Assembly: GCA_026705465.1 (NCBI GenBank)
Contig: JAPPAP010000019.1
Location: 62,001 to 126,000, forward strand
Reading direction: 5' to 3'
Length of the DNA: 64,000 bases
Source of the DNA: a bacterium
Lineage (GTDB): Bacteria > Actinomycetota > Acidimicrobiia > Acidimicrobiales > Bin134
Shown: piece by piece, positions 48,032 through 48,403 of the stretch
How the letters are laid out: every line of letters begins with the position of its first letter
How positions within the stretch are numbered: position 1 is the stretch's first letter
Translations under genes and position numbers: made by a program
The notes under the pieces: model-generated
Seen by the model: the letters and a program-made list of their open reading frames with translations, nothing else
Database searches by the model: none
What the model was told of the DNA's origin: nothing

Positions 48032-48403
48032 GACGGTGAGTCGGCCGGGTGGCCGCGGCGTCGGGGTCTCGGCCTCGGTGTCGAGGAAGGTCGGGACTCC
48101 AGAGGGCAACGGTGCTGGCTAACGGCCAGTCGGGGCGACTCGAAGGAAAGTGCCACAGAGAACAAACCGCCGATGGCTCGGACTTCCGGGCACAGGCAAG
48201 GGTGAAACGGTGCGGTAAGAGCGCACCAGGGGCCGAGGCGACTCGGCTCGCTCGGCAAACCCCACCGGGAGCAAGGCCAAGCAGGGGACATGGTGGCCCA
48301 CCGCCCCGTCAGGGGCAGTCCCCGGGTAGGCCGCGTAGATGGATGGCCACCCACGGTCCGCCAGGACCGGGACAGAATCCCGCCTACAGGCCGACTCACC
48401 GTC
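48032..48403 (+). ncRNA. rnpB: RNase P RNA (bacterial type A)
   Basis: This is the catalytic RNA of tRNA 5'-end processing. Conserved blocks are in order: GAGGAAGGTC (48083), ACAGAGAACAAACCGCC (about 48152-48168), GGGTGAAACGGTGCGG then TAAGAGCGCACC (about 48200-48230), and GGCAAACCCCACC then GGAGCAAGGCCAA. ACAGAATCCCGCCTAC (about 48372) completes the set. A 15-bp P1 helix (48032-48046 with 48389-48403) defines the ends; length is about 372 nt. P4 pairs as AGG, U bulge, CGGGA (48088-48096) with UCCCGCCU (48378-48385), all Watson-Crick, although both strands differ from the usual sequence. It follows glpK and lies in a gap without coding genes. Confidence 0.97.

Follow-up and report, generated by a model that had tools for sequence, protein, structure and literature searches.

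Of the 21 nucleotides that are universally conserved in RNase P RNA, 11 lie in helix P4, which has been called the most conserved part of the molecule (PMC4919922). A published search for rnpB relied on the motif AAGTCCG, taken to represent the 5′ half of the helix universally (PMC4264200). In E. coli, the active-site ion contacts O4 of U69 as well as the phosphate groups of A67 and G68 (PMC9433436), and in a mimic of P4 from T. maritima, G318 and G319 associate with Mg2+ (PMC4919922). According to the offset used in PMC12710915, these two residues correspond to G356 and G357 of E. coli, whose numbering is used hereafter. P4 is not generally tolerant of substitution, because C70U, adjoining the 71-356 pair, costs approximately 250-fold in the cleavage step (PMC11221534). 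In the literature consulted, we found no account of RNase P RNA naming Acidimicrobia, and no description of the variant reported here among papers on P4 covariation and P4 positions.

The rnpB gene and its genome

The DNA analysed here, referred to as the window, is a stretch of 64,000 nucleotides from a draft genome (3.1 Mb, 40 contigs, 96% complete) of the Acidimicrobiales. The Rfam search located a bacterial type A RNase P RNA gene (rnpB) at window 48037-48402 on the forward strand (RF00010, 240 bits, E = 7.8e-77), and the match covered the full model (1-367) with a score above the gathering threshold of 100 bits. The first-pass annotation of this DNA, which had placed the RNA at 48032-48403, was thus correct about the gene and a few bases off at its boundaries. 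This was the single RF00010 match in the whole genome; the second, canonical rnpB whose existence had been considered is absent, and there is one rnpA (PF00825, 48 bits). The RNA shares with the RF00010 consensus and E. coli M1 RNA all the consensus helices, the bulged U of P4 and the motifs GAGGAA, GCCACAGA, GGUAAGAG and ACAGAA. A pseudogene was ruled out by the full-length conservation and by retention across the lineage, and the locus is an ordinary RNase P RNA gene of a sponge-associated actinobacterium.

A glycerol-3-phosphate oxidase-like gene and an FGGY kinase gene lie upstream on the same strand (44857-47975), and genes for a zinc-ribbon coiled-coil protein and a penicillin-binding protein lie downstream on the opposite strand (48956-52008). 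A scan for promoter and terminator gave nothing useful.

Two changed base pairs in P4

The 5′ strand of P4, AGG, U, CGGGA (positions 66-74), was read at 48088-48096, where it aligns with the conserved GAGGAAAGUCCGG of RF00010, and the 3′ strand, UCCCGCCU (positions 353-360), at 48378-48385, where it aligns with CCCGGCUU; both are on the forward strand. On the 5′ side of the bulged U48091 (U69), the pairs are A48088-U48385, G48089-C48384 and G48090-C48383, and on its 3′ side C48092-G48382, G48093-C48381, G48094-C48380, G48095-C48379 and A48096-U48378. All eight are Watson-Crick pairs, in agreement with the first-pass annotation, which had also correctly counted two pairs changed on both strands relative to the mycobacterial form.

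Unlike the textbook helix, with A-U at 67-359 and C-G at 71-356, the window RNA has G-C at both. At the former, G48089 replaces A and its partner C48384 replaces U; at the latter, G48093 replaces C and C48381 replaces the G of position 356 (T. maritima G318), so that half of the proposed Mg2+-associated GG step is lost. The pair 74-353 is A-U instead of G-C, which is a common actinobacterial form. Written as two strands, the helix is AGGUCGGG / CCCGCCU where the canonical form is AAGUCCGG / CCGGCUU, and the order likewise departs from the latter. This departure does not exclude membership of RF00010, since accepted Clostridium RNAs (291-292 bits) also depart; the canonical P4 sequence is a consensus feature of the family, not a requirement for membership.

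The nearest-neighbour energy predicted for the window P4 was -11.3 kcal/mol, and the natural canonical and variant forms ranged from -8.9 to -11.9. By the same calculation, the single mutant C71G was predicted to slip into a P4 register that has no bulge, which may explain why 71-356 changes on both strands together.

Distribution within Acidimicrobiales

The Rfam model leaves P4 unpaired and does not score its pairing, as P4 forms a pseudoknot with P2; pairing was therefore tested by comparison across relatives. A gene for rnpB was present in 59 of the 60 nearest relatives, and, within the genus, 20 further species have the P4 of the window on both strands and one more has it on the 5′ strand. 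The proposal that the changes are real covariation was therefore borne out, as relatives carry the same paired substitutions and retain the U bulge. Since the window comes from a draft genome of 40 contigs, one might suspect an error of sequencing or assembly, or a second, degenerate copy. Such an origin is almost certainly wrong, because the two sides of the changed pairs are separated by about 290 bases, rnpB is present once only, and the same P4 occurs throughout the genus and across the order; sequencing error and a second canonical rnpB are both refuted, by the single copy and by the same P4 in the relatives.

G71 was present in 77/77 sampled Acidimicrobiales loci from about 40 families, comprising 73 distinct loci parsed on both strands, one read on both strands, and three that are cut by a contig end and were read on the 5′ strand only. 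The sample includes loci labelled Ferrithrix, Ca. Microthrix, Ilumatobacteraceae and Ca. Poriferisocius. G71-C356 was found in all 73 parsed loci, and at 67-359 G-C was the majority state (58 loci, versus 15 with A-U). Some families thus differ from the window RNA in retaining A67-U359, and in family f43 the 5′ strand has C at position 67 (three genomes). In a pattern scan of 148 genomes of the order, every rnpB-type match among the matches listed carried GAGGAAnGTCGGG, and GAGGAAnGTCCGG was absent among them.

In one locus labelled Ferrithrix thermotolerans, the end pair 74-353 is an A-C mismatch, the sole non-standard P4 pair found. Two records labelled Acidobacteria have rnpB sequences placed inside Acidimicrobiales on the tree and are probably mislabelled MAGs.

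Distribution outside the order

C71-G356 was found in 33/33 loci from the other orders of the class, most of which were picked as top Rfam scores and are thus biased toward the canonical form, and C67-G359 in three of these 33. In the pattern scan of the phylum, the variant was absent from 8/8 genomes of the class outside the order. Among 106 Actinomycetota loci outside the class (86 parsed, and 20 read separately and canonical), 71-356 was C-G in 98, G-C in seven and U-G in one. The seven G-C loci belong to two families, f85 and f89, and the whole class of f85 (three genomes) shares the double change of the window RNA. In the U-G locus the U71-G356 wobble occurs together with A73-U354, and it is a possible intermediate state of the pair.

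A scan of 84,980 species gave at least 119 pattern matches. Besides Acidimicrobiales and Coriobacteriia, those listed include a Limnochordales MAG and two named Clostridium isolates, whose RNAs were confirmed as type A and have a fully paired P4. In the family to which one Coriobacteriia MAG belongs, CGGG was found in 5/5 pattern-bearing genomes. The 20 pattern-bearing genomes of the C. vincentii genus, a count that leaves out 49 genomes with no pattern match, were divided between CGGG (17) and CCGG (three). The Clostridium RNAs (C. vincentii, C. cibarium and others) resemble the window RNA in having G71-C356 and the U bulge; they differ from it in retaining A67-U359 and belong to an independent lineage.

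These distributions do not support the claim that a rarely varying helix has been remarkably rewritten. The 67-359 pair varies freely in the phylum among A-U, C-G and G-C. G-C at 71-356 is fixed throughout Acidimicrobiales and turns up again in Coriobacteriia, Clostridium, a Limnochordales MAG and two further actinobacterial families. As to whether the changes are already common in Actinomycetota, which the first-pass annotation had raised against its own reading, this is largely so for 67-359 and partly so for 71-356 (7/106 loci outside the class and all of the order).

Covariation and independent origins

Over 290 distinct rnpB sequences, 2315 of the 2320 P4 pair cells were Watson-Crick, four were G-U and one was a mismatch, although the parser demanded U69 and favoured paired strands, so that the pairing rate is inflated and the invariance of U69 is partly built in. 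Pairs 66-360, 68-358, 70-357 and 72-355 were invariant, and 67-359, 71-356, 73-354 and 74-353 varied. At 67-359, all the sequences had a Watson-Crick pair: A-U in 147, G-C in 132 and C-G in 11.

On a tree of rnpB built with the P4 columns left out, which as a single-gene tree is noisy, position 71 required a minimum of 10 changes on the best topology and of five on well-supported branches. Both strands changed in 5/5 phylogenetically independent contrasts at 71 and in 4/4 at 67 on such branches; the five contrasts are too few for significance by themselves (sign test, p = 0.06). Three members of the class with C71 were placed inside the order on weak branches. The recurrence of the same P4 states in distant groups could in principle result from horizontal transfer of rnpB between Acidimicrobiales and other groups. 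On the tree, however, f85, f89, Coriobacteriia and Clostridium fall away from the order in separate groups with support of 98-100, so that the G71 sequences from outside the order mostly sit next to their own relatives, and we consider transfer very improbable.

When the order was compared with canonical relatives, no unpaired core column differed, and the differences were confined to ordinary helix columns, including a P2 pair. This P2 pair, window 48050 / 48349, is mostly U-A in the order and mostly C-G in canonical relatives, with both strands changed. At window position 48300 the RNA has A, as do 12 of 73 members of the order; outside the order, G is found there in 116 of 119 relatives.

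Discussion

The swapped pairs are lineage variation; they do not define a new kind of ribozyme and are not unique to this genome. With the sequence, the pairing, the single copy, the order-wide fixation and the recurrence of the swap as observed here, the window RNA is very probably a functional type A RNase P RNA carrying a lineage-fixed, recurrent and near-neutral swap of P4 pairs. The RNA would act with RnpA to make the 5′ ends of tRNAs. In an ancestor of Acidimicrobiales, 71-356 would have flipped from C-G to G-C, and 67-359 would have moved among A-U, G-C and C-G. Selection would hold the geometry of P4, that is, the eight pairs, the bulged U69 and the invariant A66-U360, G68-C358, C70-G357 and G72-C355, and would leave the identity of 67-359, 71-356 and 74-353 nearly free. 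Near position 67, metal is contacted by backbone phosphates and by O4 of U69, so the ion contact should depend little on which base occupies 67, and a swap there would cost little. The simplest reading is that the identity of 67-359 and 71-356 drifts provided that the helix stays paired and the U bulge is retained.

Against near-neutrality, fixation across an entire order could reflect selection. Moving a G from position 356 to 71 might change the metal site of P4 and thereby alter divalent-ion preference or substrate choice. P4 binds catalytic ions, the residues equivalent to G356 and G357 associate with Mg2+ in T. maritima (PMC4919922), and the swap is fixed in a whole order and has several independent origins, all of which would fit an adaptive change. 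We nevertheless regard it as unlikely, as the lineages that carry the swap are unrelated (MAGs of Acidimicrobiales, among them sponge-associated ones, Clostridium and Coriobacteriia), both states of 71-356 occur within one Clostridium genus, and the unpaired core carries no linked change. A related proposal, that the entire order uses the relocated G (G356 lost, G71 gained), with a shifted metal site, changed use of divalent ions and a compensation invisible in the sequence, appears quite improbable.

The variants bear on how P4 is searched for and studied. A search with the AAGTCCG motif (PMC4264200) would overlook all the Acidimicrobiales rnpB genes sampled here and many of those of Clostridium, which calls for caution in motif searches. 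The natural variants also distinguish the P4 pairs that can change (67-359, 71-356 and 74-353) from those that do not, and they provide ready-made matched pairs for work on the metal site, a natural experiment on an active-site helix.
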